Shown here: positions 3,874-60,156 of the stretch, one piece after another
Numbering within the stretch: the stretch's first letter is position 1
Layout of the letters: every line of letters begins with the position of its first letter
From: a virus
Length of the DNA: 64,000 nucleotides
Reading direction: 5' to 3' (one strand)
Virus record (IMG/VR): IMGVR_UViG_3300022693_000799
Coordinates: 1 to 64,000 of that record
The notes under the pieces: model-generated
Databases searched by the model: none
Told to the model about the DNA's origin: nothing
Seen by the model: the letters and a program-made list of their open reading frames with translations, nothing else
Made by a program: the position numbers and the translations under genes

Positions 3874-3912
3874 CCTACCTCTACCTATCATGGGTAGAGG
3901 TAGGTTATGCCG
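3874..3912. terminator. Bidirectional hairpin with TATGCCG tail
   Basis: A perfect 12-bp stem (CCTACCTCTACC at 3874-3885 and GGTAGAGGTAGG at 3893-3904, loop TATCATG) is followed by TTATGCCG at 3905-3912. On the other side it is flanked by CGCATAA at 3863-3869, the near-complement of the same tail. It sits between convergent genes ending at 3869 and 3913. The same 12-bp stem recurs at 44422-44452. Confidence 0.85.
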
Positions 3913-5787
3913 TTATCCACGACCTGTATTACGAGCAACCGCCGCCAGTATTCTACCGGGAACAGTTGCTGAAACATGCTGCGCATAGAACGCAGGAGAT
4001 GTCCATTTCTCAAACTCTTGTGTAGCTTGAACAAATCGACGCTTCAGCTTCTGAACAGGATAGAACTGCTCGGTTAACCCTAGACCACCTAAGATACCCA
4101 TATAGTCACTAAAGGATGAATCATCATCAAAGAGACCTGGACTATCATTAAGTGGCATGTGCATGACTGTTGATAGGTCTTTAACAGATATTGTAACATC
4201 TATACCCGTAGGTAGATGATCAACTGACCAACCTATATTACCCACACCACGTGTAATAGATACACTGTCGATGATTGATAATCTAGATTGCTGTCGACCT
4301 TTAACAAACAGATCACAAAGGAACGGACTGGTATACGACTGCGCACCTGTTGATAACGGTAACGCGCCTGCAAGGATCATAGCCAACGGTACGTAGATGT
4401 TAGTAAAGATACTCATCTTGTTACCGTAGGGTGCTCTTAGCTCTAGCGTGTAAGACTCACTGGGTAATTCAGCAACGGAATCCTGCCAGTGTTCCGGGAT
4501 ATCTACAAAGGCACGACCACCTAGAGCAGCTAAACCTGATAAACCTACACCATCAGCAACACCAGCAATAACGTCTTTAGCACCGCCTATAATGCCTTCT
4601 ATGGCTCCAGAGATAACACCATCGCCGATATTACCATCTAAGGTAGAAAACCTCGCAGAACGCGCTGAGGACGACATACCGTTGATCTTATTGGCAATGT
4701 CAGACTCACCAGTTGTGTTAGAGAAAGATTCATTGATAGAGCGATCAGGATTAACCTTAAAACTCACCCAATGTGAACCATCCGATAACTCACTAGAAAG
4801 ATGTTCAAAAAACCCAGATTCCCAAGAACCAATAGGATCTTGTTTCTCTTTATCCGCATCCGCACCCTGAGCCATGGACGTAGAGTGATAACGCGCCATG
4901 TAGTCTTTTAATGAAGAACCTGCTGGAATAGGGCCAATGTCTTGCTCGGTCATACGTCTTGCTGCAGTAGCTAACCCTTCGCTGGTTGTTGCATTTTGAA
5001 GCGCAGCCTGCTGTAGGACAATCTGTCGATTACGAATACGTTGAGCACGGTTAGCAATCGCATATATGTCAACACCTCCATCTCCACGAAAAACATCCGG
5101 CAATAGCTTATTAAACGCTTCTATCTCTTTAGATGTTAACCCCGCCTCGTAGTTAGGTTCTGCCTTTCCATCCGCGTTAACGGTATAAGAGTCAATATCA
5201 GCAGCGCCTATCAAACCCATGTTTACCGCTAAGTTATTAACGATAGTATTAACCGCGCCCCAGTATAGAGGCATCGTAGGTTTGAGGTAGTAGTATTTAC
5301 TATATGGCTTATCATCTAAAAAACGATAAATACGTCCAGCAACCACAAAAGGAAGTAAGGGGATAGCAAATAGAAATCCAGCTACCTTACCAATGTTGTA
5401 CAAAACCCCAGTCGATTCGCCTGTACGAGCCAACGTCCCCATTGAACTATCAAAGAAGTTAGTAAAGAACGTTGTTAACGAATTGTACTCCGCTACCCCA
5501 AAACGCATATGTAGCGTAATTGAGTTATCGTCTATCGCCTCGCTATAATAGCGCCCCATACCCTTAGAGGGGCTAAATGGTGCTTTTGCTTTTATATCCG
5601 CATGGCGAGTAAACTGAGGGGGGTTATTAATTGTGTAGTTACCACCTAATGTGGTATCTGTGTATTTTGTTGACGCCATTGAAAACACGCGACGTTTTTT
5701 ATCAACATCGTCAATGTCTGACTTGCGTAAAAGGAACGCTTGCCTCAACCATGCTGTATCTTCCAAGACATCTGAAAGTATAGTCAT
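3913..5787 (-). CDS. Probable virion structural protein, 624 aa
   Basis: It is a large soluble protein with one strong hydrophobic segment near residues 131-153 (GKVAGFLFAIPLLPFVVAGR) and a second moderately hydrophobic stretch at about 464-480 (IYVPLAMILAGALPLSTG). The glycine/alanine-rich region near residues 390-425 is typical of tail or tape-measure-associated proteins. It lies just downstream of the giant tail protein gene on the same strand (68-base gap), suggesting a shared operon and a tail or injection-apparatus role. No enzymatic motif was recognised. The start is the ATG at 5787, preceded on the minus strand by an AGGAAACC ribosome site. Confidence 0.7.
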   Translation of the reverse strand: MTILSDVLEDTAWLRQAFLLRKSDIDDVDKKRRVFSMASTKYTDTTLGGNYTINNPPQFTRHADIKAKAPFSPSKGMGRYYSEAIDDNSITLHMRFGVAEYNSLTTFFTNFFDSSMGTLARTGESTGVLYNIGKVAGFLFAIPLLPFVVAGRIYRFLDDKPYSKYYYLKPTMPLYWGAVNTIVNNLAVNMGLIGAADIDSYTVNADGKAEPNYEAGLTSKEIEAFNKLLPDVFRGDGGVDIYAIANRAQRIRNRQIVLQQAALQNATTSEGLATAARRMTEQDIGPIPAGSSLKDYMARYHSTSMAQGADADKEKQDPIGSWESGFFEHLSSELSDGSHWVSFKVNPDRSINESFSNTTGESDIANKINGMSSSARSARFSTLDGNIGDGVISGAIEGIIGGAKDVIAGVADGVGLSGLAALGGRAFVDIPEHWQDSVAELPSESYTLELRAPYGNKMSIFTNIYVPLAMILAGALPLSTGAQSYTSPFLCDLFVKGRQQSRLSIIDSVSITRGVGNIGWSVDHLPTGIDVTISVKDLSTVMHMPLNDSPGLFDDDSSFSDYMGILGGLGLTEQFYPVQKLKRRFVQATQEFEKWTSPAFYAQHVSATVPGRILAAVARNTGRG

Positions 5788-5854
5788 AACGGTTTCCTAT
5801 GATTAAATTTGTAATTAAGTAATGATAGAACGGACATCCTTGTCCTATCCTACA

Positions 5855-8800
5855 TTATCCGGTCTTACCCATACCAACAGGCGGTGTAGAACGTTGACGC
5901 TGATTAAGCAGTTGTCTACGACGTGCCTCAGCTTGTCGCTGTTTAGCACGTTCAGCTGCAGCCTCACCACCGCTAACTGGTGCTTCAGACTTAGGAATGA
6001 CTTCATCACCTTGCAAGTGTTTCCAAATGCGTTTAAGTGTATCATCCATAGACTGTTGAACATACAGTGACTCATTGAGAATGTTACCAATATAGCCAAG
6101 TTGCTCGTTTGCTAGCTCTGCGTACATTTGCTGATGTGCATCTACAGCGTTTACGCGTTTATCAGAATACTGATTAACCGCGCTGATGTGATCATCTAGA
6201 ACAACACGCTCTCTTTGCTCTTCTAAAAGAACAGCATTTTGATTACGTAAACGTTGTTGGTTGATAACTTCATCAAGATTGATAGTATAACCATTATAAG
6301 TGTTAACATCGTTCTTATAACGATTTGAATCTACTACGTCCTCTATACTTGAACGCTGCGTCGCACTATAGTCATCACCCTCACTCACCATCGTACGGTT
6401 ATCAATGTTAGAATAGTAATTGTCACGGCGTCGTGCTACTTCTTCTTCACTGATAATACGCGCACCATCTTCGGTGTGATGTTGAATAGCCGAAGTGTTG
6501 ATCTGTGTAGATCGATCAACCACGGTATCTACACCTGGGTAATATGTATCCGCATTAGCAGCCATCACACCACCCATAGTCACACCTAACCCACCTAACG
6601 CTACCGCATTGTTAGGTATTGAAGGTCTACGTGTTGAGGTCTGGCTATTTGAACCGCTACCTAAAGCAAGTACTGAACCGCCTGACACAATAGCCGCTGC
6701 TTTAAGCTTACGCGTTAATGCATCTTGAGGTTCCTCAATGACTGTCTCAGGCATTGCCATTTCCTTATCTCTAGGTGGAGTATAAGAGGCAGGCGGTACT
6801 AAACCTGATGTAACCGGTTCAGGGCTATCCTTAGATGCTTCGACAGTGTCTTTCAACTCACCACCATACTCCTGCATGACACGATTATACTGCGTGACAA
6901 CGTCATCGCTAGTAGCTTCTTGATCAAAGTAAGGTGACGTATTACCAATAGCCGGTGAACTCTCTAGAAGTTCAAACGCTTTCTTAGTAAACGGTACGAG
7001 TTGATCTTCAGGTAAGTCATCATCTAGATCATCCACATCTAGATCTTCATCGATGCGATTAGCCAAAGTTGCATATGTTAGCAGCGTGGGTTTAAACGTA
7101 CCTTCATACCAACGAACAAAGGCTTCTAAATTCTGAGGATTATTCTTATCCACATTGAATCTTTCACCGTGCTCATCAATAAGGTCATTATAATCAACTT
7201 TAGGTAAAGTAGCCTCTCCCCTATCATTAAAGGTGATATCATCGAGCGACGCTTCTTCTAAAAGACGAATCGCACGAAGTTGACTTCCTTCCTCAGTGTT
7301 GATACCCATCTGCTTAAAACGCATATCCTCGATAGGGTCTGCATCGCTCCTACTGTTAAGATACTGAGCGCCTTTATAAGCACCCCATAACGCAGTTGCA
7401 GCCCAACCCACTGGACCTAGCGCTACACGACCGACCGACAACCCAACACGCGCTAGTGTCCCTAATGCTTTACCAGCACCACCTAGCATCGACGCGCCTT
7501 TACCGACTACTGAAGCAACTTTAGAACCCATACCCGCTAAGGTGGATGCACCAGTTCCTACCATACCTGCAAGACCGGAGCCCGCTGCTAGTAACGCCTT
7601 ACCTGGTGATTTAATAAAATTACCCACGGCACTTAGTCCTTTACCACCTAGGGATTTAATCTTACTAAATATACCACGCTTGCCTGAGCTTGCTCTTGCT
7701 GCTTTACGCTGCGCTCTACGCTCTCTGCGATCAGCACGACTATCTCTGTCAAACTGATCACCTAGCGCATCACCTGCGATCTCACTTGCAGCTTCTCCAG
7801 CAACATCACCAAAGAAACCACCCTCGTCATCCTCTCCACCAAATAAGTTAAGTCCTTTAATCTTATCGGTAAGTCCGCCTAAGAAACCGGCTACCCCACC
7901 TAACACCGCAGCACCAGGTGTTGATTTAGCAACCGCAGCTTTAGCTTTATCGGCAAGGCTTTCTTTATTACGCTGGTCTAAATAACTACCATCACGTATA
8001 CCGTCGCCGTCAGCATCGCCTAAGACTTTCTCTTTCTTAAATGTGCTGATGAGCGTTTCTTTAAGACTTTCTATAGAGTCCTTCACTTGCATTGATGCGT
8101 CAGTTGCTTTATCAGAAACAACTGTATAAGCATCTTTACTAGACTCTACTAACGATGATAGATTTTGGTTAAGTGTTGAATCGTTCTCTTTGATCTGCGT
8201 CTCTAATCCACCCGTCACGTCTCTGACACTCGACAAGACTTGCTTTGTTAACACGTCTGTCTTTTGTTGAGTACGCTCCATCAACGTATAAAGATGTTTA
8301 TCCTTGACATCCTTAGACGCTTTAGTTACCACACTGGTAGATCTATCATTTTCTCTAACAATATCCCCACCATCCGACAATGTAGTATCGGGTGTCTGAT
8401 GCTCATCACGAATACTTATTAAGTTATTTCTATCATTCCTTAACCGATTAACGGTGTTGTTATTTGACGTGTTTAAAACGTCTACAATTGACGCCTTTAT
8501 TAGCTCAACTAACCCGCCTGTTGTCTCCCCAATGCTATTAGACAGTAAACTATTTGAATACTGACTTAGATACATTTCAGTAGGAGCAAGGCCACCTATG
8601 TTTACTTCGTCTCCATTTTGGGTGTAAGAACCATCCCTGTTTGCTATATTTTCTAATACCGACATATAACTAGGTGCTATATTATCAGTAGATGACATAT
8701 AGTAACCAGTATTACTTATAGTTCCAGGTCGTGAGGGGTCAGCGCTATACATTAACTCGGTGTTTAAAGTTGATGTATTTTGCGTCTGTGGCGTTATGCT

Positions 8801-12700: not shown

Positions 12701-12791
12701 AGCCTACCCCTAGTGTAATAAAATAAAAGTCTACGTTATATAGTGACGTATCATAGATTTAACGACTTACCACCCCTTAAGGAGGTCATCC

Positions 12792-14726: not shown

Positions 14727-14731
14727 GAAGA

Positions 14732-14765
14732 GTAGGGTGGGGTAAGCTCCATCCTACTTATGCCG
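14732..14765 (+). terminator. Hairpin with TATGCCG tail
   Basis: GTAGGGTGGGG pairs with CTCCATCCTAC (two G-T pairs), followed immediately by TTATGCCG at 14758-14765. It closes the unit 12792-14726 and precedes the early-type promoter element at 14782. Confidence 0.75.
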
Positions 14766-14781
14766 TGCTACTAATCTTTAA

Positions 14782-15480: not shown

Positions 15481-16011
15481 ATGCTAACATCAAGCCGTTA
15501 TATGATGCCAGCAACATTAAACGATGAAGAGAAACGTTTTAAAGAGGTATTCGCAGACTTAGTTAAAAAGGTAACCATATGGGGACCTAATCAGCCAAGC
15601 ATTGCTGAGTATATAATTGAAACTTTATATACTGAAGCCACTACTACCATGGCTAGTTATGATACGCAACAAGGCGTGCCACACTACATCAATGGTAAGT
15701 GTGTAATGTTATTCTGGTTACTTAAGTATTGTCGAAATAAAGGTATTGGTAATCACAATACCAAACTAATCATCAAGCGTACTGTTTCAATTAAAGAACT
15801 AAAACGCAACACCATTGCAGTCAATCTGTACGATACGGTCAATCACGATAATAGTATATTTAATTCTAATATCCATGCCTCTACGTTAAGTATAGACAAT
15901 GACCATGTTGAACTTACTGTTGATATTCTTACCTATGTGATAAAACGCATGGCTTATGAATATCATCTTGAAAATAATCAAATGACGTTATATAAGTTGG
16001 AAGGGGTATAA
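15481..16011 (+). CDS. Unknown 176-aa protein
   Basis: The ribosome site is GAAAGGAAA at 15464-15472. The product is a soluble alpha/beta protein with a hydrophobic helix near residues 78-90 (VMLFWLLKYCR). The final codons form the left arm of the hairpin ending in TATGCCG (15995-16030), so its 3' end doubles as the terminator. Family unknown; the position implies early expression. Confidence 0.65.
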   Translation: MLTSSRYMMPATLNDEEKRFKEVFADLVKKVTIWGPNQPSIAEYIIETLYTEATTTMASYDTQQGVPHYINGKCVMLFWLLKYCRNKGIGNHNTKLIIKRTVSIKELKRNTIAVNLYDTVNHDNSIFNSNIHASTLSIDNDHVELTVDILTYVIKRMAYEYHLENNQMTLYKLEGV

Positions 16012-16030
16012 GCCTCTTCCAACTATGCCG
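15995..16030 (+). terminator. Hairpin with TATGCCG tail overlapping a gene end
   Basis: AGTTGGAAGGGG (15995-16006) pairs with CCTCTTCCAACT (16013-16024) around a 6-base loop, immediately followed by TATGCCG ending at 16030. The left arm lies inside the coding sequence, the stop codon lies in the loop, and the next gene starts only 27 bases on. It may therefore be partial or leaky. Confidence 0.75.
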
Positions 16031-17101: not shown

Positions 17102-18217
17102 ATGAGAACTTATAACGCTTTAAACATGCAACCCAGTGAATGGTCTAGTAAGCAAGCAACCACAACATCTGTTTGGGGACGCAAAAATACACCACCTATT
17201 GCCAGCGGTATACAAACCGAACAAATTATTGGTGATTACCACTACATTGTAGCTAACATCTTGGACGGCAGTATTAATGAGAAAGAAACGTTGCTTCGTT
17301 CTTTGATTCGTTTACGCGATGATGTTTTATATTGTAACGATAATCGAGATATAATGGAGCTACTTTCGGCGTATGAGATTGGCATGGTCCTTATGCGTTG
17401 GATCAAACAAGTAGCTAAAGACACCACTACGGTTCAGTGCTTTGAAATGAATATTGCAAGTCTTGATAAACCTACAGGTTCTATCATCTCTATACTTGCA
17501 GATGCATGGATACATGGTACGGATAACTTTACTCATGATACTGTTGAGAGCGTATTGACTGCTGCGCCTAATGTACAGTTAAATGCATTACGTGTATTAA
17601 ATACTGTTGGTATGGTTACAACACGTCTTGGTGATGTATATTACTTCTATAAGCCCGACAACACGTCGGGATTTAACCTTAAAGAAGAATATGCTAGGTA
17701 TAACGTGGAGAACACACACGGGGTATCTGTTAATGGCCATATAGAAACAGAAGCACCTGGTGTCATTAGTGATGAACCACTTAAAGACTTGTATCACTGT
17801 ACGTTGAATCTACTTGATCGTGATGTGGTAGATAGCGATGCGGTTAATGCATTAGTTATGAAATATTACACTAACAATTCTCAACGTAAAGCTAAACGTG
17901 AAGTCCTGGTGGCGGAGGGAATTATTCTTTCTACTATCGTTGAAGTAACTAACAAACAATGGGCAACAAACATGTTACAGTCAACATGCAAACAACTGCC
18001 TAAATACTTTAACTGTGAAGACGGTATATTTGGTCAGTTTAACTATTACCGTAGCATAAGCACAACGCAGATAGAAATCCCTAAGAGCGCTAAAACACGT
18101 GCAAAAGCCCGTGAGACCATCCTTGCTGCCTTTGAATTATTAGGCATTGAAATGGATGATAAGAAAAGTGTTTCAGATACAATAGCTTATGTTGTACCTG
18201 GTCGTCAAGTTCTGTAG
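17102..18217 (+). CDS. Unknown 371-aa protein, paralog of the preceding gene
   Basis: It lies 19 bases after its paralog with an AAGGAAA ribosome site. It has an N-terminal extension (residues 1-40, Ser/Thr-rich with GRKNTPP) not seen in the other copy. The shared part covers a helical core, a VYYF motif near residue 186 and the C-terminal AFELLG helix. It is the last gene of the 14837-18217 unit, followed by another early-type element and a strong hairpin plus T-run. Confidence 0.7.
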   Translation: MRTYNALNMQPSEWSSKQATTTSVWGRKNTPPIASGIQTEQIIGDYHYIVANILDGSINEKETLLRSLIRLRDDVLYCNDNRDIMELLSAYEIGMVLMRWIKQVAKDTTTVQCFEMNIASLDKPTGSIISILADAWIHGTDNFTHDTVESVLTAAPNVQLNALRVLNTVGMVTTRLGDVYYFYKPDNTSGFNLKEEYARYNVENTHGVSVNGHIETEAPGVISDEPLKDLYHCTLNLLDRDVVDSDAVNALVMKYYTNNSQRKAKREVLVAEGIILSTIVEVTNKQWATNMLQSTCKQLPKYFNCEDGIFGQFNYYRSISTTQIEIPKSAKTRAKARETILAAFELLGIEMDDKKSVSDTIAYVVPGRQVL

Positions 18218-18237
18218 GTTGTAGCACGAACCACGTA

Positions 18238-18248
18238 ACCTACATTAC
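18238..18248 (+). promoter_or_regulatory. Early-type promoter element ACCTACATTAC in the non-coding region
   Basis: An exact copy of the element found at 1828 and 49967, starting 21 bases after the stop of the preceding gene. Unusually, no gene follows within normal distance: a hairpin with a T-run ends about 65 bases downstream. It may drive a short non-coding transcript or be inactive. Confidence 0.55.
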
Positions 18249-18268
18249 GTAAAAGAGGAGGGGGTGTC

Positions 18269-18313
18269 GTAGAAGGGGGAGTCACGTCCCTTCTACCCTC
18301 TCTTCTTTTTTTT
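18269..18313 (+). terminator. Hairpin plus T-run
   Basis: GTAGAAGGG (18269-18277) pairs with CCCTTCTAC (18288-18296); flanking G-rich and CCTCTC segments extend the pairing imperfectly, and TCTTC then T8 follow (18306-18313). This is a classical intrinsic terminator without the TATGCCG tail. It could end the 14837-18217 unit or a short RNA started at the element at 18238. Confidence 0.75.
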
Positions 18314-18724
18314 GCCTTTAAAAAGCACTGTACGCTGTTTTAAGCCGGTTAACCCATATAACCTATCCCATAGCCCTATATCTCAACCGCGTGCGCTCAC
18401 GCCCCGCTGCGCGCCCTGCCCGAAATTCGCCTACTGGCTGTGTGTTTTTAGTTTTCTGTTTTAATAAATTTGATTTTTAATTTATAAAACTATTGTGTAG
18501 TTGTGATGATTGTATTTCTTTAATTAGTTATATTTTCTTATCTAAAATTATTAGTTACTTGTATTTATTACTAAATATAGGTTACTTGTAATTTAGTCTA
18601 TTTCTAAAATAATTATTACTTGTACTTTTATAAAAATATAACTATAATTTGCTTGGGAATTATTTTGTAACATTCTAGTTTATTAGGTATGAGCGGAGCG
18701 TAGCGACAACCCCATTCCCCCAAA

Positions 18725-18747
18725 GGGGGGATTATAAGAATCCCCCC
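18725..18747. repeat. GC-capped inverted repeat in the non-coding region
   Basis: GGGGGGATT and AATCCCCCC form a perfect 9-bp stem around ATAAG. A CCCCC tract immediately before (18717-18721) can compete for the left arm. The following G-rich segment to 18782 is unlike the rest of the genome. Symmetry would allow a protein site or a structure at an origin. Confidence 0.6.
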
Positions 18748-18891
18748 GGGAGAGGATGGTAGAGATGGGGGGCCGTGGGGGGAAGAGAAGGAAACCCAAA
18801 CGTCAAAAAGTGTCTGTGAAAAAATTGAGTAAACACACGGTAAATTTCATGCATCGTTATGAACCTGTCACATACACGTAAGGATAGCCAT

Positions 18892-27444: not shown

Positions 27445-27451
27445 CATCATG

Positions 27452-27485
27452 TATAACCCTGCCATTGCGGTAGGGTTATATGCCG
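27452..27485 (+). terminator. Hairpin with TATGCCG tail
   Basis: ATAACCCT-GCC pairs with GG-T-AGGGTTAT around a short loop, followed directly by TATGCCG at 27479-27485. It closes the 18892-27444 module; the next early-type promoter starts 15 bases on. Confidence 0.75.
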
Positions 27486-27499
27486 TCAGGAAATAATAG

Positions 27500-28770: not shown

Positions 28771-28793
28771 GGATAGCCTATACGTAAGCCAAG

Positions 28794-28842
28794 GATGGTA
28801 GAGACTGTAACGTCTCTACCATCTATGCCGGATTCTTTTTTT
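28794..28842 (+). terminator. Hairpin, TATGCCG tail and T-run
   Basis: GATGGTAGAGAC (28794-28805) pairs perfectly with GTCTCTACCATC (28812-28823), followed directly by TATGCCG (28824-28830) and then GATTCT7. It combines the recurring tail with a U-tract, making it the strongest terminator candidate in this part. Confidence 0.85.
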
Positions 28843-29693: not shown

Positions 29694-29706
29694 CGTAACA
29701 CCATGG

Positions 29707-29739
29707 CGCAGAGGGGTAAAACCTTCTGCGTTATGTCCG
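29707..29739 (+). terminator. Hairpin with variant tail TTATGTCCG
   Basis: CGCAGAGGG (29707-29715) pairs with CCTTCTGCG (29722-29730), followed by TTATGTCCG at 29731-29739, one inserted T relative to TTATGCCG. It separates the genes at 29385 and 29765. Confidence 0.7.
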
Positions 29740-30370: not shown

Positions 30371-30429
30371 CGGCATAAAAGAGCACGATTAAATCGTGCT
30401 CTTGTTATTATGCTTTTTTTTTTATGCCG
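30371..30429. terminator. Bidirectional terminator with CGGCATAA and TTATGCCG ends
   Basis: CGGCATAA (30371-30378) is followed by AAGAGCACGATT paired with AATCGTGCTCTT (30379-30403), then TTATGC, T10 (30414-30423) and TTATGCCG (30422-30429). The plus and minus copies of the tail flank one long stem between convergent genes. The minus-strand stop codon of the tube gene lies inside the right-hand motif. Confidence 0.85.
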
Positions 30430-38805: not shown

Positions 38806-38856
38806 GCATAAAAGCCTAACCACCTAGCCGTGATGCCGGGTGGTTAGCTTATGCCG
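38806..38856. terminator. Bidirectional hairpin with TATGCCG tail
   Basis: CGCATAA at 38806-38812, then CTAACCACC (38816-38824) paired with GGTGGTTAG (38839-38847), extended by AAG/CTT, then TTATGCCG (38849-38856). It separates the plus-strand virion gene from the minus-strand gene at 38861. Confidence 0.8.
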
Positions 38857-44413: not shown

Positions 44414-44463
44414 CGGCATAACCTACCTCTACCCGCGATAGGTAGAGGTAGGGTCTTTATGCC
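44414..44463. terminator. Bidirectional hairpin with CGGCATA and TTATGCC ends
   Basis: CGGCATA (44414-44420), then CCTACCTCTACC (44422-44433) paired with GGTAGAGGTAGG (44441-44452), then GTCT and TTATGCC (44457-44463). The 12-bp stem is identical to that at 3874-3904 although the loops differ (CGCGATA versus TATCATG). Confidence 0.8.
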
Positions 44464-47881: not shown

Positions 47882-47890
47882 TGTAATTTA

Positions 47891-47924
47891 GACCACGTGG
47901 CATCTAGCACGTGGTCTTATGCCG
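47891..47924 (+). terminator. Plus-strand hairpin with TATGCCG tail
   Basis: GACCACGTG (47891-47899) pairs with CACGTGGTC (47908-47916), followed by TTATGCCG at 47917-47924. It is immediately opposed by a mirror element for the minus strand, showing that the tail is a directional 3' signal rather than part of one palindrome. Confidence 0.85.
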
Positions 47925-47927: not shown

Positions 47928-47958
47928 CGGCATAGAGTAGGCCCGAAGACCTACCCTA
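47928..47958 (-). terminator. Minus-strand hairpin with TATGCCG tail
   Basis: Read on the minus strand, TAGGGTAGG and CCTACTCTA (47950-47958 and 47933-47941) form a stem with one mismatch, followed by TATGCCG (CGGCATA at 47928-47934 on plus). It closes the minus-strand gene 47963-48748. Confidence 0.8.
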
Positions 47959-47962
47959 GAAA

Positions 47963-48931: not shown

Positions 48932-49897
48932 ATGAGTAAACACACCTTAAGAATCTACGCGGCAGGCGGCTGCGCGACTAACTTAGCGAAGCCCTTTGTT
49001 GGTTTAGAATCGTCTGACATCTACGCCGATATCGATCCTGTTTTTGTAGACACTAGCATGTCTAACATCGAAGGACCTATCACTGAAGAAATGTGCTACA
49101 TCCTACCTGACGTAGATGGCTCAGGTAAGGTACGTCGTGAAAACCACCAACGTATCTCTGATTCAATCAAAGACATCGTGTCAATTCACCCTCCAGGTGA
49201 CTTTAACATTGTTATGTTCTCAGCCGCAGGTGGTTCAGGTTCAGTAGCTGGACCATTGATTGCTCGTCATCTTCTTGAAATTGAAGCACCATTGATCTGT
49301 ATTGTAGTGGGTTCTACAGACTCTGCTATCACGTGTACTAACACACTTAATACACTGAAATCATTAGATAGCATCTCACAAGCTGCAGAGCTACCTATCA
49401 CATTGTTCTACGAGGAGAACGGTGCTGGTGTTAAACGTTCAGAAATTGACAAGCGCGTCAAAGGTGCTATCGGTTCTATCAGTGCTTTGGTATCTGGCAA
49501 CAACCGTGAACTTGATACTAAAGACATTTCAACATGGGTGTACTACAACCGTGCGTCTAAAGTTGAACCACAGTTAAGTCAGCTATCTATTCTTCGTGAC
49601 AACACAGCGGTAGAAGGTCTTAATGAACCTATCTCTATTGCTTCATTGTTAGCAGACCCTGACACGGAGATGCCTGAAGCTGCGCCCGATTATCAATGTA
49701 TCGGTTATCACCGTGATCAGTCTGGTGAGGTCCCTGACATGCACCTTGTGATTTCTGTGAACGGCATTGAGCGTATCTACGAAGGTATTGCTAAGGCGCA
49801 TGGTACTTACGAGAAGTCTACGTCTAAGCGTTCTCTAGACAGAAAGACTTTCGTTGGTGGTGGCGATCAAGTAACTAAAGATGGCATGGTACTGTAA
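48932..49897 (+). CDS. phuZ: PhuZ tubulin/FtsZ-like GTPase (phage spindle)
   Basis: This 321-residue protein carries a tubulin-type N-terminus (AAGGCATN, residues 10-17) and the nucleotide-binding G-box SAAGGSGSVAG (97-107), followed by the ICIVVGSTDSAITCTNTL region. PhuZ filaments centre the phage nucleus in the host cell and move capsids to it. Length matches known PhuZ proteins (about 310-340). The C-terminal tail is charged (STSKRSLDRKTF), as needed for filament contacts in PhuZ. Codon choice suggests strong expression. The leader 48749-48931 has no clear early-type promoter; a hairpin-TATGCCG element follows. Confidence 0.92.
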   Translation: MSKHTLRIYAAGGCATNLAKPFVGLESSDIYADIDPVFVDTSMSNIEGPITEEMCYILPDVDGSGKVRRENHQRISDSIKDIVSIHPPGDFNIVMFSAAGGSGSVAGPLIARHLLEIEAPLICIVVGSTDSAITCTNTLNTLKSLDSISQAAELPITLFYEENGAGVKRSEIDKRVKGAIGSISALVSGNNRELDTKDISTWVYYNRASKVEPQLSQLSILRDNTAVEGLNEPISIASLLADPDTEMPEAAPDYQCIGYHRDQSGEVPDMHLVISVNGIERIYEGIAKAHGTYEKSTSKRSLDRKTFVGGGDQVTKDGMVL

Positions 49898-49911
49898 GTA
49901 CCCATCCAGAA

Positions 49912-49948
49912 CGCATACCGCCTCCCTGATGGGGAGGCGTCTATGCCG
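49912..49948 (+). terminator. Hairpin with TATGCCG tail after phuZ
   Basis: CGCCTCCC (49919-49926) pairs with GGGAGGCG (49932-49939), followed after TC by TATGCCG (49942-49948); a left-hand CGCATA copy (49912-49917) flanks the stem. An early-type promoter element starts 19 bases on. Confidence 0.8.
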
Positions 49949-49966
49949 CTTGTCAGTATTTTTCAG

Positions 49967-50365: not shown

Positions 50366-50380
50366 AAGGACCTACCCCCT

Positions 50381-52200: not shown

Positions 52201-52211
52201 GAGAATATACA

Positions 52212-52929: not shown

Positions 52930-52932
52930 GTT

Positions 52933-53319: not shown

Positions 53320-53340
53320 TAACAAAAAGGAGCACGTGCA

Positions 53341-54058: not shown

Positions 54059-54096
54059 TACAAAGGTAAACTTTTACAGACCTCTGTTTATATAGT

Positions 54097-54198
54097 ATGA
54101 ACGTTGTTGAGTTTGAGACCCTCCTCAGTGTTCTTGATCTTGAGCCAGAAGATCGATCCCTAAAGGTAGTCACGCACCTTTATATTTGTCAAACGTAG
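54097..54198 (+). CDS. Possible 33-aa small ORF
   Basis: ATG at 54097 opens a 33-residue frame rich in Glu, Leu and Asp (NVVEFETLLSVLDLEPEDR) ending at TAG 54196-54198. No clear ribosome site precedes it. It sits between the array and the terminator at 54206 and could be a truncated array remnant or chance. Confidence 0.25.
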   Translation: MNVVEFETLLSVLDLEPEDRSLKVVTHLYICQT

Positions 54199-54205
54199 TG
54201 TTTAC

Positions 54206-54256
54206 CCTTCCTACACCTTTCCTCTAGGGTGTAGGAAGGTTTTATGCCGTCTTTTT
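54206..54256 (+). terminator. Hairpin, TATGCCG tail and T-run after the array
   Basis: CCTTCCTACACC (54206-54217) pairs perfectly with GGTGTAGGAAGG (54228-54239), then TTTTATGCCG (54240-54249) and TCTTTTTTT (to about 54258). It ends the small-gene array before the DNA polymerase gene. Confidence 0.85.
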
Positions 54257-54323
54257 TTGTTTTCGTTTTTTACACCCTCAACCAATACCATGAGCAGAAG
54301 AATTAACTAAGACGAGTGTCAAT

Positions 54324-56459
54324 ATGGAAAACCCATTTGTTCTCCCTACCCAAGAGTATGGTCGAGATTTGAATATCCTGGAACGTTACTATCAGGATAC
54401 CGCAAGATACCTAGCCTTAGAGACAGGTCGTTCACATGACGAGTGCTACCAGTGGGTTAAAGAAACCACCCACCCTTCAAGCGGTAAGTTGCCTTTAAAA
54501 GATCCAAAGGTGCTAAGCCTTAAACGAGACAAGCCAGGTGAGCGTGATAAGTGGGAAACTACATTCCTTGGCTACCTTCAAAAGGTGAACAACGAGAACT
54601 TAATCATCAGCCCTACACTAGCAGCATATAGACACCCTGATCAGCACGAGTCTATACTTGCTAAGTATATCCGTAAGAACGTAGATAAGCGTAATGCTGT
54701 TAAGAAAAAGAAATTCCAGTCTACGATGGCAGGTAATGATGCTGAGGCTGGCTTTTACGACATCCTGCAATCTACATTTAAAATCAAGAACAACTCAGTA
54801 AGTGGTGGTCATGCATCAGCTTTCACACCGCTGTATAACAAATCAACCCACTCTACACTAACCTCTACCTGCCGTTCGGCTACCGGGTATGCCAACGCCA
54901 ACAACGAACGCTTCCTATACGGTAACCGTCACTATTACGATGTGGATGTGGCAATCCAGAACATCATCTCAATAATCAACAATAGTGACTATAAGACAAT
55001 AGCAGAAGCGGTAGAGAAATATAATCTACACGTCCCTAGTGTAGAGGAAGTCTGTGAAACGATTAAATATTCAACAGACCTATACTGGCGTAATCTGCAG
55101 TGGTCTAACCGTATCCACAGTCTGATATCTAAACTGTCTGATATGGAACGTGTGGCTTATACTTACACGGGTAATTTCTACCATCTACGTGAATTAAACC
55201 CAGAGTTCACTAGAACGTTCCTAGATCGTTTTACTACGTGCTCAGACACCACGATAGACAACCCAGAAGCAGTCATCAGTGAGATGGATGGGGATCTTGA
55301 AGCGTATGTAGGCATTCTGCATGCTCACGATTTAAAGAATAAACCCATCTTTAAAATCAAAGAATCTGAACCTGAGACTTATGCACACATTGCTAGTTCA
55401 GTTAACAATATCTTTGACTTACTGAAAGAATATACAGTATTGTTTAAAGCGTTCTGGGTGACCCTCAACCCGCCCGCATCGGTAGCGGTATTACCCGATG
55501 CTATACGTCGTGGTGTATTGGTGTCGGATACAGACTCTACCATCTTCACTGTTCAAGACTGGACTATGTGGTATAAGAATGGCGTGGTTGATTTCGATGC
55601 TAAAACAACGAGTGTATGGGCGTTTGTTGTATACATTGCCCAGATGACTACCATGCATCTGCTTGCTTTGTTGTCATCTAACATGGGTGTGGCTAAGCCT
55701 GATTTGTATAAGTTATCAATGAAGAACGAATACATGATGCCCGCGTTGTCATTGACAAGTCGTGCTAAACACTACGCCTATTACATTAGTGCGCAGGAAG
55801 GTAACGTCTATAAGAAGATGAAAACGGATATCAAGGGGGTTGAGCTTAAATCTACTAAAGCCCCTAAAGAGATCATTGAAAAGCTACACAAGTACATCAT
55901 GAAGCCGATGGACTGGACGTTGGAAGGTAAGAAAATCCCTATTAAAGAAATGATGCAAGAAGTTGCTGACCAAGAGCACGCTATCATTGACAGCCTTAAT
56001 CAGGGTAAGATCGATTATCTAACCACCGCCGGTATTAAAGCTGCTGAGTCGTACGCTAACCCACAAGGATCTAATTACATCTATTACGATTTCTGGAATA
56101 CTGTCTTTGGTCCTAAGTATGGTGAGGTGCCACCACCACCGTATAGCACGGTAAAGGTATCGCTAAATGCTACGTCTAAGACAAAGGTATCAGAATGGAT
56201 ACGTAGTATCAAGGATGTTGAATTAGCAGAACGTCTTGAAGACTGGATGGGTAAGAATAACAAACTAGCAGGGATAACGCAGTTCTTAATCCCCATGGAT
56301 GTTATTAGTACCAAAGGGATGCCTGAAGAAATAATCCAATGTATGGATATACGGAAGATTGTGTTCACCACCATGGCACCATTCTATCTGGTATTGGAGA
56401 CGTATGGGGTGTATATGAAAGATAAGAATATCACTAAGCTTGTTAGCGATATCATGTAG
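54324..56459 (+). CDS. Family-B-like DNA polymerase (catalytic part)
   Basis: VSDTDSTIF at 400-408 is the palm motif with the second catalytic Asp pair (Asp402, Asp404) of family-B polymerases. ATGYANANNERFLYGNRHYYD (about 186-206) resembles the fingers motif with a conserved YG. SRAKHYAYYISAQEG, then KTDIKGVELKS, corresponds to the KKRY and template-contact region. Length 711 and the absence of recognisable exonuclease motifs suggest only the polymerase part is present. phiKZ-like phages have such divergent polymerases. It is preceded by a strong terminator and no obvious early-type element. GTAGGAGG follows, leading into the next gene. Confidence 0.8.
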   Translation: MENPFVLPTQEYGRDLNILERYYQDTARYLALETGRSHDECYQWVKETTHPSSGKLPLKDPKVLSLKRDKPGERDKWETTFLGYLQKVNNENLIISPTLAAYRHPDQHESILAKYIRKNVDKRNAVKKKKFQSTMAGNDAEAGFYDILQSTFKIKNNSVSGGHASAFTPLYNKSTHSTLTSTCRSATGYANANNERFLYGNRHYYDVDVAIQNIISIINNSDYKTIAEAVEKYNLHVPSVEEVCETIKYSTDLYWRNLQWSNRIHSLISKLSDMERVAYTYTGNFYHLRELNPEFTRTFLDRFTTCSDTTIDNPEAVISEMDGDLEAYVGILHAHDLKNKPIFKIKESEPETYAHIASSVNNIFDLLKEYTVLFKAFWVTLNPPASVAVLPDAIRRGVLVSDTDSTIFTVQDWTMWYKNGVVDFDAKTTSVWAFVVYIAQMTTMHLLALLSSNMGVAKPDLYKLSMKNEYMMPALSLTSRAKHYAYYISAQEGNVYKKMKTDIKGVELKSTKAPKEIIEKLHKYIMKPMDWTLEGKKIPIKEMMQEVADQEHAIIDSLNQGKIDYLTTAGIKAAESYANPQGSNYIYYDFWNTVFGPKYGEVPPPPYSTVKVSLNATSKTKVSEWIRSIKDVELAERLEDWMGKNNKLAGITQFLIPMDVISTKGMPEEIIQCMDIRKIVFTTMAPFYLVLETYGVYMKDKNITKLVSDIM

Positions 56460-56467
56460 GAGGATGT

Positions 56468-56857
56468 GTGGCAGATAATTTTCTAACATACCCTAGCCAT
56501 AGAAAAGGAAGCAGTATCAATAAAGTACTGTCTTCTTTTAAAGCAGGTCAACGAGTCATTGCTGTAGTTGATATTACAGAGGGTGAGTTCGATATGCCCT
56601 ATGCAAAGGCAAATGATGTATTGCGTATTAAAACAATTCATCTAGACGGTAGAGTAAATCCTATCGAGGTCTATCATGAGCTTGGGGCGGAAGAATATAG
56701 AACAGCACTGGAGATACCTGAGGGTTTAGATTACAGCCTTGAGGATAAAGCGTTCTTTGTTAGCGAGCGGGAGATAGCCGCTACAGTTACCAACCCGTTT
56801 ATGGATAGGCTTCCACCTACAGGCGGTCGATACGTTAACCCAGACTATCGTAAGTAA
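56468..56857 (+). CDS. Unknown 129-aa protein downstream of the DNA polymerase
   Basis: It starts with GTG at 56468, with AGGAGG ending 5 bases before it. The product is an alpha/beta protein with a short basic N-terminus (PSHRKGSSINKVLSSFKAG), a beta-rich middle and a Pro/Gly-rich C-terminus (MDRLPPTGGRYVNP). It is co-transcribed with the polymerase, so a replication accessory role is possible. No family is recognised. Confidence 0.65.
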   Translation: MADNFLTYPSHRKGSSINKVLSSFKAGQRVIAVVDITEGEFDMPYAKANDVLRIKTIHLDGRVNPIEVYHELGAEEYRTALEIPEGLDYSLEDKAFFVSEREIAATVTNPFMDRLPPTGGRYVNPDYRK

Positions 56858-56860
56858 GAC

Positions 56861-56908
56861 AGCATAACTAGGAAGATCTAGCATCGTGCTAGATCTTCCT
56901 GTATGCCG
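56861..56908. terminator. Bidirectional hairpin with TATGCCG tail
   Basis: AGGAAGATCTAGC (56870-56882) pairs with GCTAGATCTTCCT (56888-56900), a perfect 13-bp stem, then TATGCCG (56902-56908); GCATAA at 56862-56867 flanks the left side. It lies between convergent genes ending at 56857 and 56909. Confidence 0.85.
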
Positions 56909-57997
56909 TTATATGAGGAGTTTAAGTCCCTCAAGCTCTATCTCTAAAAGATCCCTAATAACGCCGTGAGGAGCGACCAGTGTGGTCTTATCGCTACGAG
57001 CTCGTCTTAGTTCACGTTTGAGTGCATTTTCAAAGTCTCTATCCTGACCTTGTTGTGTAGTTAGATACCATGATGTAGCATGTTTAATCCAAGGTAACCA
57101 TATCAGCCAAAGTATCCAGCTTACTTGTCTGGTACTAACTAAACGGTTAAATGGTAACGCATCTCGCATGCGTTGATCTAATCGTAATGGTACATTGTCT
57201 AACACATCATCTATAGACGCATTCATTCTGATTAGCTCATCAACAACATCAGGGTATTCTTTATCAACGCTCCCATCAAAACTAGGAATAGCTAGAATAG
57301 GCTTAAGTGCACTTTTGGTTTGTGCTTCCCCAAGGTAGTGGCGTAAGTAACGGTTCATTAAGCTAATAGATAACTGATGATCTAACATATTTACTAATAC
57401 GTACTGATAGACAAATTGATTAGTAGAACCGCGTTGGTCTATAGGCTTAAGGTTTTCATAATGCGCCCATGTTCTGTACTGGATAGCAAGTAATGGGATG
57501 TCTATCGCAATGACACTATATCCTACTTCTTCGTGTTGTTTTTGTCCGTCGGGGAGGTTCAAGTTTAAGTCACTGCTAGGATGATATAAGACACGCACTG
57601 CGTTGGCATTAGACCAATCAGCAAGTAAACCATTACTGGCCCACTGTGGTCGCGTTAACGTTGTAGCTACCAGGATGTCTACGATGTTACCACCATAAAA
57701 CTCACCTTCCAAAGGTGGGTATGTAGATATCTCGGTACTAATCTGCTGACCATGTGCAATATCAGTTTCAATGTCTTCTAGGTAATCGTAATAGCGCATC
57801 ATGTTCATTGCGTTCATGGGCGGTAGGCTATCTAGAAGCTTAACAAGGGGCTGGGTGTCTTTTAAACGTCGAGGTGCGCTTATTGCCTTGGCTTTAACAC
57901 GCTCTAAGGCTTTGTCTAATCCGCGTTGGGCTTGGAAAAGACCCGCAAAAACCTTTTGGTTGCGGTTAGGGGAATCTGGAGTAAAAAGCCGTTGCAT
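56909..57997 (-). CDS. Unknown 362-aa protein
   Basis: The minus-strand start follows ACAGGTGACCC. The product has a basic N-terminus (KALERVKAKAISAPRRLKD), a central alpha/beta region with several Tyr-rich helices, and a Trp-rich segment near 300-320 (VSWILWLIWLPWIKHATSWY), unusual and possibly membrane-interacting. The C-terminus is charged. No family is recognised; it is the only minus-strand gene between 49 and 64 kb. Confidence 0.65.
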   Translation of the reverse strand: MQRLFTPDSPNRNQKVFAGLFQAQRGLDKALERVKAKAISAPRRLKDTQPLVKLLDSLPPMNAMNMMRYYDYLEDIETDIAHGQQISTEISTYPPLEGEFYGGNIVDILVATTLTRPQWASNGLLADWSNANAVRVLYHPSSDLNLNLPDGQKQHEEVGYSVIAIDIPLLAIQYRTWAHYENLKPIDQRGSTNQFVYQYVLVNMLDHQLSISLMNRYLRHYLGEAQTKSALKPILAIPSFDGSVDKEYPDVVDELIRMNASIDDVLDNVPLRLDQRMRDALPFNRLVSTRQVSWILWLIWLPWIKHATSWYLTTQQGQDRDFENALKRELRRARSDKTTLVAPHGVIRDLLEIELEGLKLLI

Positions 57998-58140
57998 GGG
58001 TCACCTGTGGATGAGTGAAGTGATGTAAAGTTTTAATGTTTTCGAGTCATACTATAGAGACAGGTAGCTGTCAGTGTACTTATACTTGGTATAGGTGCCT
58101 AACCTGTGTCCCTCTGTGAGGCGATTCAACCTAATTAAAC

Positions 58141-58151
58141 ACCTATATCAT
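58141..58151 (+). promoter_or_regulatory. Early-type promoter element ACCTATATCAT (variant)
   Basis: ACCTATATCAT, 76 bases before the ChmA start, keeps ACCTATAT and differs at the end from the consensus. It fits early, strong expression of the shell gene, as known for phiKZ gp54. The leader after it carries no strong hairpin. Confidence 0.6.
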
Positions 58152-58226
58152 TCTAGTGGTCTATCCAGGAATGGAAGATCTATTAGCTAATTTTAAGTTT
58201 GACAACATAATAAAAGGTATACCATT

Positions 58227-60095
58227 ATGGCTGTAAATAAAGATAACAAGTCTACTCCGTCTAACCCTGCTATGGCAGAAGCAATGAAAGAGTCAGGCGC
58301 GCAGCAAAGCCGTTCAACAAACCAAAACCAACCCAATCGAGGAAGAAACGTGGAAGGTCCAAAATCCCTAGCCGGTCTTAATTCTTTATTCAGCAACCCA
58401 ATGACGCGTAGCACTGCAGGCGAAGTCACTGGTGAGCTAACTCAAACGCTTCGTAAGATCCTATCTTCAGAGCGTAACAGCGTACTTGAGAAAGTAACGA
58501 TTGAACCTGTGGACGGCGATAGCCATTCACTAGCCCTTTCTGTAATTGTATTACAGTTCCCATTCAACGAGCACGTTGCCTGCTATACCTACATTGTAGA
58601 AGGTTCTGGTGACGGTCTTGCAGATCGCGTTCCAACTATTGCTGGACAGCAAGTAAACATCAAGACTGTTCCTGGTGACGTATACGACGATAACATGTGG
58701 GAACAAGTTAGCATGTATCTTCGCAGCAAGTACGGTAACGAGCGCAGCTTCATCGATGTTGGCGCTAACGTAATTCCACGTACAGTTACAGCTGACCATG
58801 AGAAAGAAATCCGCAGCCTATTATACTTCGGTATCACTGCGTGTTACACTACTCTACTTAAAATCAATGGCGATACCAGCAACAGCATTAGCGTAGCTGA
58901 TATCAACACCGGTGACGTGCTAGCAGCGCAGCTTCGCTACAATCCAGGCGACACGCAAACTGCTGCTGGTCAGACTGTACGTTCAGATCTATCTATCGCA
59001 CTTCGCGGTATCATGCAAACAGGTGAAGCGGTATCTGCTAAGCAGACTATCCCACTAACAACTGTTGATGGTTACATGGATCTAACTTACGTTCCACGTC
59101 AGCAACAACAAATGGCGTATGGTCAGCCTGTTGATCACCGTCAATACGTACCGCGTCTAGTAATGACTAACGTATCTTCTGGTCTAAGCGTTAACACGCT
59201 AGAGCTTGAACTACTAGGTCTTTCTACTACGGTACTAGCAGCCCAGCACCACGCATGGGTTAAGTGCTTCAAGCCTGTATACGGTGCCAGTAAGAATGAC
59301 ATTCATGACATCGGCGCACTAGGCTTTGAAGTTGACTTCGCAAACAATGGTGAGTACGGTCGTATCTCTACTAAGAGCGATTCATTCTCAGACCAAAGTC
59401 TGTTCGAGCTAGTACAACGCAGCATGTACAACGAAGTACTGTTCTCTTGGGATATCCCTGAAACCGGTGACCTAAGCTGGTTACAAGAAACGTTCCTAGC
59501 CGCAGCGGCTGGTAACAGCAAAGCAATTAACACTCTGTTCAATGCAGCAGATACGTTAACTGGCGGTGCGTTTACTCGTAACTACGACGGTGCTCCTCCT
59601 CTAATGAGTGAGATTACTCGTGTACATCTTGGTACTTACCTAGATGAAAATAATACTCCACGTGATCTACGTGATCTTGATTACCTAGCGATGCTAAACA
59701 TCTACGGTGATAAAGACCTAGGTCTAGTTGAAGCATTTGGTAACACTTACGACCAGACTGATCGTCCTCAAGAACTACGTCTGGCAGAGCGTGCTAAAAT
59801 CATCGAAGCTACACTAGGTGATACAGTAACCATCACTGGTTACGCACGTCGTGTTACATTCAATCCTAAGTTCATCGAAGCGCTTGCTATGGCTTGTGCA
59901 GAAGCTGGACTTAAGATCCGCCCTGAGGGTATCTACGGTAACGACATGGGTGCCATTCGTGGTAACACGTCAGCTGTTGGTATGGGTATTGGTCAAAACG
60001 CCGGTGGTGCTGTCTTCCAACAAGGTGGTGCTAACTGGGGCGGTTCTGGTATGGGTTACGGTGCTCGTAACTCTGGTGGACTGTGGAACCGCTAA
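58227..60095 (+). CDS. chmA: Chimallin-type phage nucleus shell protein (probable ChmA)
   Basis: At 622 residues it is close to known chimallins (about 600-640). Its layout fits: a disordered Asn/Gln/Ser-rich N-terminus (1-65), two mixed alpha/beta lobes, and a Gly-rich disordered C-terminal tail (about 585-622) like the segments that stitch the shell. The core contains HVACYTYIVEGSGDGLADR near 115-133. It lies two genes before an RNAP beta' half, as 201phi2-1 gp105 lies before gp107, and phiKZ gp54 before gp55. It has an early-type promoter, highly biased codons and a UUCG-loop terminator. Alternatives are the major capsid protein or another abundant virion protein; the early promoter argues against them. 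Confidence 0.78.
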   Translation: MAVNKDNKSTPSNPAMAEAMKESGAQQSRSTNQNQPNRGRNVEGPKSLAGLNSLFSNPMTRSTAGEVTGELTQTLRKILSSERNSVLEKVTIEPVDGDSHSLALSVIVLQFPFNEHVACYTYIVEGSGDGLADRVPTIAGQQVNIKTVPGDVYDDNMWEQVSMYLRSKYGNERSFIDVGANVIPRTVTADHEKEIRSLLYFGITACYTTLLKINGDTSNSISVADINTGDVLAAQLRYNPGDTQTAAGQTVRSDLSIALRGIMQTGEAVSAKQTIPLTTVDGYMDLTYVPRQQQQMAYGQPVDHRQYVPRLVMTNVSSGLSVNTLELELLGLSTTVLAAQHHAWVKCFKPVYGASKNDIHDIGALGFEVDFANNGEYGRISTKSDSFSDQSLFELVQRSMYNEVLFSWDIPETGDLSWLQETFLAAAAGNSKAINTLFNAADTLTGGAFTRNYDGAPPLMSEITRVHLGTYLDENNTPRDLRDLDYLAMLNIYGDKDLGLVEAFGNTYDQTDRPQELRLAERAKIIEATLGDTVTITGYARRVTFNPKFIEALAMACAEAGLKIRPEGIYGNDMGAIRGNTSAVGMGIGQNAGGAVFQQGGANWGGSGMGYGARNSGGLWNR

Positions 60096-60117
60096 GTTAA
60101 AATTAGCTAAGTAGTTA

Positions 60118-60156
60118 GAAAGAGGGTCTTCGGATCCTCTTTCTTTTTTATGCCCG
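60118..60156 (+). terminator. Strong UUCG-loop terminator after chmA
   Basis: GAAAGAGGGTC (60118-60128) pairs with GATCCTCTTTC (60133-60143), one G-T pair, around TTCG, followed by TTTTTT and ATGCCCG (variant tail TTATGCCCG at 60148-60156). The very stable UUCG loop fits a highly expressed single-gene transcript. Confidence 0.88.

Follow-up and report, generated by a model that had tools for sequence, protein, structure and literature searches.

The question raised by this stretch of DNA, the first 64,000 nucleotides (nt) of the 190,650-bp virus record IMGVR_UViG_3300022693_000799 in IMG/VR (hereafter the window), is what purpose is served by its intergenic hairpins, which are again and again followed by the word TATGCCG. 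The original prediction, made from the letters of the window, regarded this combination as a candidate undescribed class of terminator, and proposed that the word is either a signal for the phage polymerases or an RNA-processing site. We analyzed the element in the window, in the whole genome and in a set of related phages. The position, strand, comparative and cross-phage evidence strongly supports a recurrent 3'-end element that resembles a terminator but has a tail of conserved sequence where a U-tract would be expected. The tail may be read by the phage polymerase or by an RNA-processing enzyme.

The word TATGCCG follows stable hairpins in the window

The window contains 18 copies of TATGCCG, compared to 5.95 ± 2.5 in dinucleotide shuffles, and none of 100 shuffles reached 18 copies. 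Thirteen of these copies (10 on the plus strand and 3 on the minus strand) are located at the foot of a stem-loop, and four lie inside open reading frames (ORFs; 9587, 11890, 20877 and 46966). All eleven plus-strand ends that had been listed before are exact matches to the word. Ten of them indeed stand at a stem-loop foot, but the copy at 30423 lies about 20 nt beyond its hairpin, the nearer tail of which is a TATGC at 30409. The three minus-strand copies that had been named (30371, 44414 and 47928) are exact as well, and the variants reported at 29731, 44457 and 60148 are present after hairpins as TATGTCCG, TATGCCTT and TATGCCCG. The folding z-scores of the 13 hairpins range from −3.5 to −8.2, and for each hairpin none of 200 shuffles equalled the native fold. 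A standard scan for T-tract terminators, applied to two 20-kb pieces of the window, listed only one of the 12 exact-tail hairpins in these pieces, and no Rfam family matched the window at gathering score.

The element marks gene 3' ends throughout the genome

For the genome-wide analyses, genes were called mechanically as ORFs of at least 80 amino acids, and hairpins were defined by a simple score of at least 20 within 120 nt of a stop codon. The genome contains 45 copies of TATGCCG (30 plus, 15 minus). Of these, 37 are intergenic, where 3.3 would be expected from the 7.4% of the genome that is intergenic (binomial P = 1.5e-34), and no 7-mer is more frequent between genes than TATGCCG counted with its complement. 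Each of the 37 is preceded by strongly folding sequence (folding energies of the upstream 40 nt between −11.4 and −27.3 kcal/mol; the median of random intergenic sites is −4.5). Among the eight copies within called ORFs, three have a folding energy of −8 or lower, a level reached by 18% of random intergenic sites.

The distribution over gene junctions depends strictly on the direction of transcription. At junctions with a gap of at least 25 nt, a rule that excludes one of 17 convergent junctions (with overlapping ORFs), TATGCCG was found on either strand at 15 of 16 convergent and at none of 17 divergent junctions (Fisher P = 1.5e-8). A hairpin and the shorter TATGC are present at all 16 convergent junctions, and TATGC also occurs at 2 of the 17 divergent ones. 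The 78 tandem junctions carry the word in sense orientation in 19 cases and in antisense orientation in none. This holds for plus-plus junctions (18 plus, 0 minus; n = 69) and minus-minus junctions (1 minus, 0 plus; n = 9), in agreement with the earlier claim that one-sided sites carry the tail on the side that needs a 3' end. At the 32 tandem hairpins, TATGYYG was found downstream 12 times and its reverse complement upstream never (15 versus 1 for TATGY), which means that in this phage the word is not merely the lower part of the stem. Convergent hairpins mostly carry TATGY on both strands (28 and 27 of 33 hairpin ends). It should be noted that convergent hairpins were counted once per strand, so that the total of 65 hairpin ends corresponds to about 49 hairpins.

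In 45 of 46 scored elements, 0 to 5 nt separate the last G-C pair from the tail, and TATGYYGT thereby takes the position that the U-tract has in an intrinsic terminator. The original statement that several elements have no T-run was an understatement: the mean number of T residues in the first eight tail positions is 3.2, and only 8 of 48 tailed hairpin ends in the genome have a run of at least four T within 15 nt (at least five in 4 of 48). The early-promoter-like motif RRCCTAYATTAH occurs ten times, always on the plus strand, with eight copies between genes and two within ORFs; six of the eight intergenic copies are located 14 to 33 nt downstream of a tail (hypergeometric P = 0.003).

The tail is better conserved than the stem

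The genome was compared to that of a relative, G002, with a polymerase subunit that is 89% identical to that of this phage over 478 residues. A usable alignment was obtained for 50 of the 65 hairpin ends, and the other 15 were dropped. In the 38 aligned ends with TATGC, which are not all independent because convergent hairpins enter once per strand, 292 of 304 tail positions are identical (96%), compared to 84% for 3' arms, 83% for 5' arms, 76% for flanks and 49% for loops. By position, the tail letters are identical in 38, 37, 38, 38, 37, 34, 35 and 35 of the 38 ends, and TATGC as a whole is kept in 36. In at least two elements (44422 and 98006) the stem was exchanged and the tail kept. Judged by this alignment, the word is conserved beyond stem and flanks. 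No such contrast was measurable for the 12 aligned ends without TATGC (arms 78–84%, flanks 80–83%). Among the stem pairs, which share the dependence between strands, 352 are unchanged, 38 are changed on both sides and still pair, and 17 are changed on one side and still pair; two unchanged positions are non-pairs. At the 35 tandem hairpins of G002, TATGYYG is again strictly one-sided, with 12 downstream copies and no upstream complement.

The phage is a phiKZ relative that probably forms a nucleus

An exact 144-bp repeat is present at both contig ends (window 1–144; genome 190507–190650), and both ends match the phiKZ gp149 homologue, for which reason the record probably represents a complete, circularly closed genome. 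Its closed length of about 190.5 kb is small for the phiKZ-like group. The window encodes beta-type subunits of phage-family RNA polymerase (RNAP), a tail sheath protein, a terminase and a DNA polymerase, as well as a Phikzvirus chimallin (58227–60095; PF25677, E 1.7e-55) and a phage-tubulin C-terminal domain of a PhuZ-like tubulin (48932–49897). In the genome, homologues were detected of the non-virion polymerase proteins gp68, gp71, gp73, gp74 and gp123 of phiKZ, and of its virion polymerase proteins gp80, gp149, gp178 and gp180. On the basis of this gene content, the phage is phiKZ-like with both polymerases and, since it encodes chimallin, it probably forms a nucleus. No match to phiKZ gp72 was found in this genome. 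A single ORF of 686 amino acids (genome 78421–80481) matches both gp71 and gp73 of phiKZ end to end; in phiKZ these are separate genes with gp72 between them.

The element is shared by several relatives but is not universal

To place these results, we counted TATGYYG at 3' hairpin ends and at coding hairpins in 14 phages including this one. The comparison phages were chosen by hand, in part from a 60-row spread of 294 tblastn matches, and most are represented by 50–120 kb each; phiKZ is covered for 280 of 280.3 kb, and this phage and G002 are covered as a whole. The word is enriched at 3' ends in eight of the 14 phages (each Fisher P < 0.002), namely this phage (30/65 vs 2/231, the 30 being a lower bound because tails swallowed by the stem are missed), G002 (28/67 vs 1/236), phiKZ (23/119 vs 1/365), PhiPA3 (8/41 vs 5/213), Goslar (3/17 vs 0/139), Eowyn (16/38 vs 0/169), Ea35-70 (12/30 vs 1/119) and FLC9 (6/24 vs 2/227). 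The record called OBP, an IMG/VR contig equated with that phage, gave 2/29 vs 0/110 (P = 0.04). A separate hairpin count found the word in 9 of 36 ends in G003 and 5 of 19 in SNUABM54. A plain count of TTATGYYGT, with its reversed pattern as control, in 23 whole records, seven of which are outside the hairpin count (PhiEaH1, MIZ-Pa99, sm033, AH04, G001, G004 and G005), agrees in the main, for instance in phiKZ (35 vs 15), PhiPA3 (46 vs 16) and G004 (30 vs 9). The combination of hairpin and tail is found in part of the group. No enrichment was detected in SPN3US (0/33 vs 1/173), Moabite (1/36 vs 0/134), pTD1 (0/32), PBS1 (1/37 vs 0/86) and phiR1-37 (0/45). We conclude that the element is common to several phiKZ relatives but patchy.

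The letters after TATG are most commonly CCGT in this phage, G002, PhiPA3 and Eowyn, (T/C)(T/C)GT in phiKZ and CCG in Ea35-70; the underlying logos were anchored on TATG, which is therefore invariant by construction, and were used for the neighbouring positions only. Runs of at least five T within 15 nt of the stem are commoner in phages that lack the word (12 of 33 ends in SPN3US, 11 of 30 untailed ends in pTD1 and 26 of 44 untailed ends in phiR1-37, compared to the 4 of 48 tailed ends reported above), but their frequency in SPN3US, Moabite, pTD1 and PBS1 is barely above that in shuffles of their own tails. The commonest hairpin-tail 5-mers in SPN3US and phiR1-37 are TTATT and TATTT or TTTTT, not TATGC, so that polymerase relatives use different tails. 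In a tree of a virion RNAP subunit (22 rows, 6 unscored) the backbone was unresolved, and the trait needs four changes, which is no better than with shuffled labels; a single origin with losses is therefore indistinguishable from several gains.

We also scanned IMG/VR for a UUCG hairpin (GGCTTCGGCC) followed after 1–7 nt by TATGCCGT, with a rearranged tail as control. This yielded 43 stretches in 40 contigs, several of which look like close kin of each other, compared to 10 stretches in 10 contigs for the control, one contig being shared. Genes for phage-type RNAP are present in 28 of the 40 tail contigs (phrog_2987 in 27, phrog_2986 in one more) and in none of the 9 control-only contigs, a contrast that could partly reflect length, since the control-only contigs (12–69 kb) are shorter than many tail contigs (6–324 kb). 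Because phrog_2987 and phrog_2986 also match bacterial control genomes, the presence of RNAP was judged on strong E-values (≤5.8e-124 and ≤5.1e-176). The 12 tail contigs without matches to these families measure 6 to 143 kb.

A probable sequence-specific stop signal for the phage polymerases

The explanation that we favour, and regard as fairly probable, is that the elements are terminators of the phage's own multisubunit RNAPs, in which the tail TATGYYG(T) replaces the U-tract and makes the polymerase stop or pause in a sequence-specific way. A GC-rich RNA hairpin would form as the polymerase leaves the gene, and the 8-nt word TATGYYGT (mostly TATGCCGT in this phage) at the hairpin foot would act as a stop or pause signal, upon which the hairpin would release the transcript about 6–11 nt past the last G-C pair. 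At convergent junctions most hairpins, with the exact or a varied word on both strands, would work both ways, and at the tandem junctions of this phage the word is located on the transcribed strand, in many cases directly ahead of an early-promoter-like motif. On this reading the RNA would end by termination, and the word would be read, with a pause, by a phage polymerase and not by a nuclease or a host factor. Infection by phiKZ is resistant to rifampicin, an inhibitor of the host RNAP (PMC4666361), which implies that phage polymerases have to end phage transcripts and should be the readers.

Several observations weigh against this explanation. Hairpin ends without a TATGY tail are frequent in this phage (17 of 65), as are ends without TATGYYG in phiKZ (96 of 119), so that transcripts must also end by means other than the tail. 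The same RNAP family is encoded by SPN3US, Moabite and pTD1, yet these phages show no tail enrichment; the word stands at 0 of 18 hairpin ends in BONAISHI and at 2 of 29 in OBP, and TTATGYYGT does not exceed its reversed control in G005 (6 vs 7), OBP (8 vs 11), PhiEaH1 (2 vs 5), MIZ-Pa99 (5 vs 9), sm033 (6 vs 21) and AH04 (8 vs 17). In the comparison with G002, 40 stem pairs are changed with loss of pairing (11 two-sided, 29 one-sided), probably in part due to misalignment of replaced stems. When the 13 window elements were folded as single sequences, TATGC was unpaired in two, partly paired in seven and fully paired in four (3861–3912, 38806–38856, 56860–56908 and the tandem 49909–49948). A clear-cut one-sidedness at tandem hairpins is confined to this phage and G002. 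Downstream tails and upstream complements number 4 and 2 of 17 in G003, 3 and 1 of 15 in Ea35-70, 3 and 0 of 13 in FLC9 and 3 and 1 of 14 in SNUABM54, and one-sidedness was not seen in phiKZ (7 and 5 of 81), PhiPA3 (3 and 3 of 27), Eowyn (8 and 5 of 26) or G003. Finally, the elemental pause consensus, G-10 Y-1 G+1 (PMC12288461), fits the tail only in part: the word matches only Y-1 G+1, provided that the 3' end is the second Y, and G-10 is not kept across phages, since the letter at this site is predominantly G in phiKZ but predominantly C in both Eowyn and Ea35-70, with no single preference in this phage.

The late start-site box of the phiKZ non-virion RNAP is T-3 A T G+1, all four bases of which are required in vitro at promoter P119L (PMC4666361, PMC7598289). 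The letters of this box are also the best-kept letters of the tail, a hint, though no proof, that both are recognized by one surface. It is conceivable, albeit doubtful, that TATG is both the start box of late promoters and, at a hairpin foot and followed by YYGT, the stop box for a phiKZ-type polymerase; the surface that recognizes promoters (gp68 or the core) would then also grip the word in the transcription bubble and hold the enzyme during release. If so, termination would be addressed by sequence and reserved for the phage polymerase.

Alternative explanations

The element could also serve 3' processing or stability. Transcription would then run past it, and the 3' end would arise from an endonucleolytic cut in or close to TATGCCG or from trimming that stops at the hairpin, with the word as an RNA cleavage or protein-binding site. 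A word that is conserved as sequence, mostly without a U-tract, at the foot of a stable hairpin is consistent with this, and its restriction to the sense strand would be expected of an RNA signal and of a terminator alike. We nevertheless consider processing unlikely, arguing that the signal is present on both strands of most convergent hairpins, in the manner of bidirectional terminators, and that the elements precede most of the intergenic early-promoter-like motifs, where a stop to read-through would be useful and cleavage alone would not provide it. A tag for another nuclear process, for instance mRNA export via ChmC, or a replication or packaging signal at gene ends is a very remote prospect. 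The phage encodes chimallin and so probably has a nucleus, and ChmC binds phage mRNA and may aid its export (PMC13282480, PMC12908238); however, the phiKZ-like phages SPN3US and pTD1 lack the motif, no ChmC binding motif was found for comparison, and the strict dependence on transcription direction disfavours a signal that acts in DNA only.

The full or partial pairing of TATGC in most window folds would be accounted for if the element were an ordinary bidirectional intrinsic terminator and the tail simply the base of an extended palindromic stem. At the 81 tandem sites of phiKZ, complement and tail are indeed about equally common (TATGY 22 vs 16, TATGYYG 5 vs 7), and the same comparison for TATGYYG gives 3 vs 3 in PhiPA3 and 5 vs 8 in Eowyn. 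The one-sided tandem tails of this phage and G002, the higher identity of tails than of arms, and the two exchanged stems with conserved tails nonetheless make this explanation quite improbable. The identity of the tail's TATG with the late start-site box, and its superior conservation over the remaining letters, would fit a late promoter at which the hairpin-TATG starts transcription, perhaps re-initiating after termination. This is the least credible of the readings: the exact word is absent from divergent junctions, where promoters must be, and is present at nearly all convergent ones, where starts would give only antisense RNA. Moreover, phiKZ gene 119 has a sole gene-strand TATG in its upstream gap (117,611; presumably P119L), and no hairpin precedes it. 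TATG itself is not clearly enriched in divergent gaps (27 vs 21.0 ± 4.4 expected), and no clear excess as a trace of late promoters was detected in 13 phages. Two further candidates were rejected. Read as a start codon (ATG CCG), the 37 intergenic ATGs open ORFs of 2–91 codons with no common pattern, and the DNA-uptake sequence GCCGTCTGAA has no copy on either strand of the genome.

Relation to known systems

The element shares with canonical intrinsic terminators a GC-rich hairpin 3' of genes, two-sidedness at convergent junctions and a signal within about 8 nt of the stem; a stable hairpin just 3' of genes precedes 37 of 37 intergenic tails, whereas the direct U-tract is replaced by the fixed mixed word TATGYYGT. 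With the late promoter of the phiKZ non-virion RNAP it shares TATG, and the same polymerase family is encoded here, but the element lies at gene 3' ends after a hairpin and its exact word is missing from divergent junctions. The RNAP of phage T7 is a single-subunit enzyme. Its class II terminator has the word ATCTGTT (PMC11617373) and is similar in that a short fixed word stops a phage polymerase; that word differs, however, and acts with a downstream U-run and no need for a hairpin, whereas all 37 intergenic copies here follow a folding stretch. DNA-uptake-sequence terminators of Neisseria and Pasteurellaceae likewise tie a repeated fixed word to terminator hairpins (PMC1852404), and some copies here share the letters GCCGTC. 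In those terminators two copies of the word form the stem, unlike the single copies at the stem foot observed here. Phage AR9 is a more distant relative. Strong termination at previously predicted terminators was reported for it (PMC5312081), and 56 rho-independent terminators were predicted for the OBP relative N1M2, with no tail described in the available text (PMC7058600).

The claim that the class is undescribed stands only for the open-licence literature: no description of a hairpin-TATG 3' element was found in the available parts of that literature, including PMC7598289, PMC4666361, PMC7618050, PMC13282480, PMC12908238, PMC7058600 and PMC6034870. The accessible text of the polymerase papers (PMC7598289, PMC4666361, PMC7618050) describes no stop signal for phiKZ-type polymerases, and PMC5468394 contains none of four termination terms. 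Of two recent reviews, one lacks "terminator" and "transcription termination" in its main text, and the other lacks "terminator" and "termination". Within the portions of the open literature covered, termination by the multisubunit polymerases of nucleus-forming phages thus appears to be untreated. A stop word shared by part of the phiKZ-like group provides an initial operon map of such genomes and accounts for the failure of a T-tract scan to list most of these gene ends. The phiKZ enzyme has been produced from plasmids (PMC7618050), which makes its termination directly testable, and a word private to the phage enzyme would be usable as an orthogonal terminator.

Catalogue of elements and other observations

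Hairpin-tail elements, early-promoter-like motifs and stem cassettes. Coordinates refer to the window unless marked as genome.
Feature	Coordinates	Strand	Context
Hairpin 3874-3904, TATGCCG 3906-3912	3874-3912	+	Convergent junction; z −6.3; minus side TTATGCG variant
Hairpin, TATGCCG 14759-14765	14730-14765	+	Tandem junction; early-promoter-like motif next, at 14781
Hairpin, TATGCCG 16024-16030	15995-16030	+	Tandem junction
Hairpin, TATGCCG 27479-27485	27450-27485	+	Tandem; early-promoter-like motif next, at 27499
Hairpin, TATGCCG 28824-28830	28790-28830	+	Tandem; T-run further downstream
Variant: hairpin, TATGTCCG	29702-29739	+	Tandem
Bidirectional hairpin 30379-30403, minus tail TATGCCG 30371-30377	30371-30403	-	
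Plus side of hairpin 30379-30403: TATGC 30409-30413, T-run, TATGCCG 30423-30429	30379-30429	+	
Hairpin (dispersed CTAACCACC cassette), TATGCCG 38850-38856	38816-38856	+	Convergent; minus side TTATGCGG
Hairpin 44422-44452 (dispersed CCTACCTCTACC cassette), minus tail TATGCCG 44414-44420	44414-44452	-	
Plus side of hairpin 44422-44452, variant tail TATGCC 44458-44463	44422-44463	+	
Hairpin 47890-47917, TATGCCG 47918-47924	47890-47924	+	Convergent
Separate hairpin 47933-47958, TATGCCG 47928-47934	47928-47958	-	Faces 47890-47924: two one-way elements
Hairpin 49919-49939, TATGCCG 49942-49948	49919-49948	+	Tandem; early-promoter-like motif at 49966
Hairpin 54206-54239, TATGCCG 54243-54249, then T-run	54206-54249	+	Tandem
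Hairpin 56869-56901, TATGCCG 56902-56908	56869-56908	+	Convergent; minus side TTATGCTG
Variant: hairpin 60117-60144, TTTTTATGCCCG	60117-60156	+	Tandem
Early-promoter-like motif RRCCTAYATTAH	14781, 18237, 27499, 49966, 60753; genome 64450, 98070, 138339	+	
CCTACCTCTACC cassette copies	3874, 44422; genome 99366, 181726		
CTAACCACC cassette copies	38816; genome 105825, 133696, 177582	Either orientation	

Three consecutive minus-strand ORFs of 948, 959 and 959 amino acids (genome 162917–171607) are paralogues with pairwise identities of 32–33%, and both gaps between them contain hairpins without a TATGC tail. The 642-nt gap at 18217–18859 contains an early-promoter-like motif and four hairpins (score of at least 18), none with a tail, and is a candidate for an untranslated RNA. 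Two near-identical stem cassettes (CCTACCTCTACC and CTAACCACC) are dispersed over convergent junctions, which looks as if terminators had spread by copying or gene conversion.

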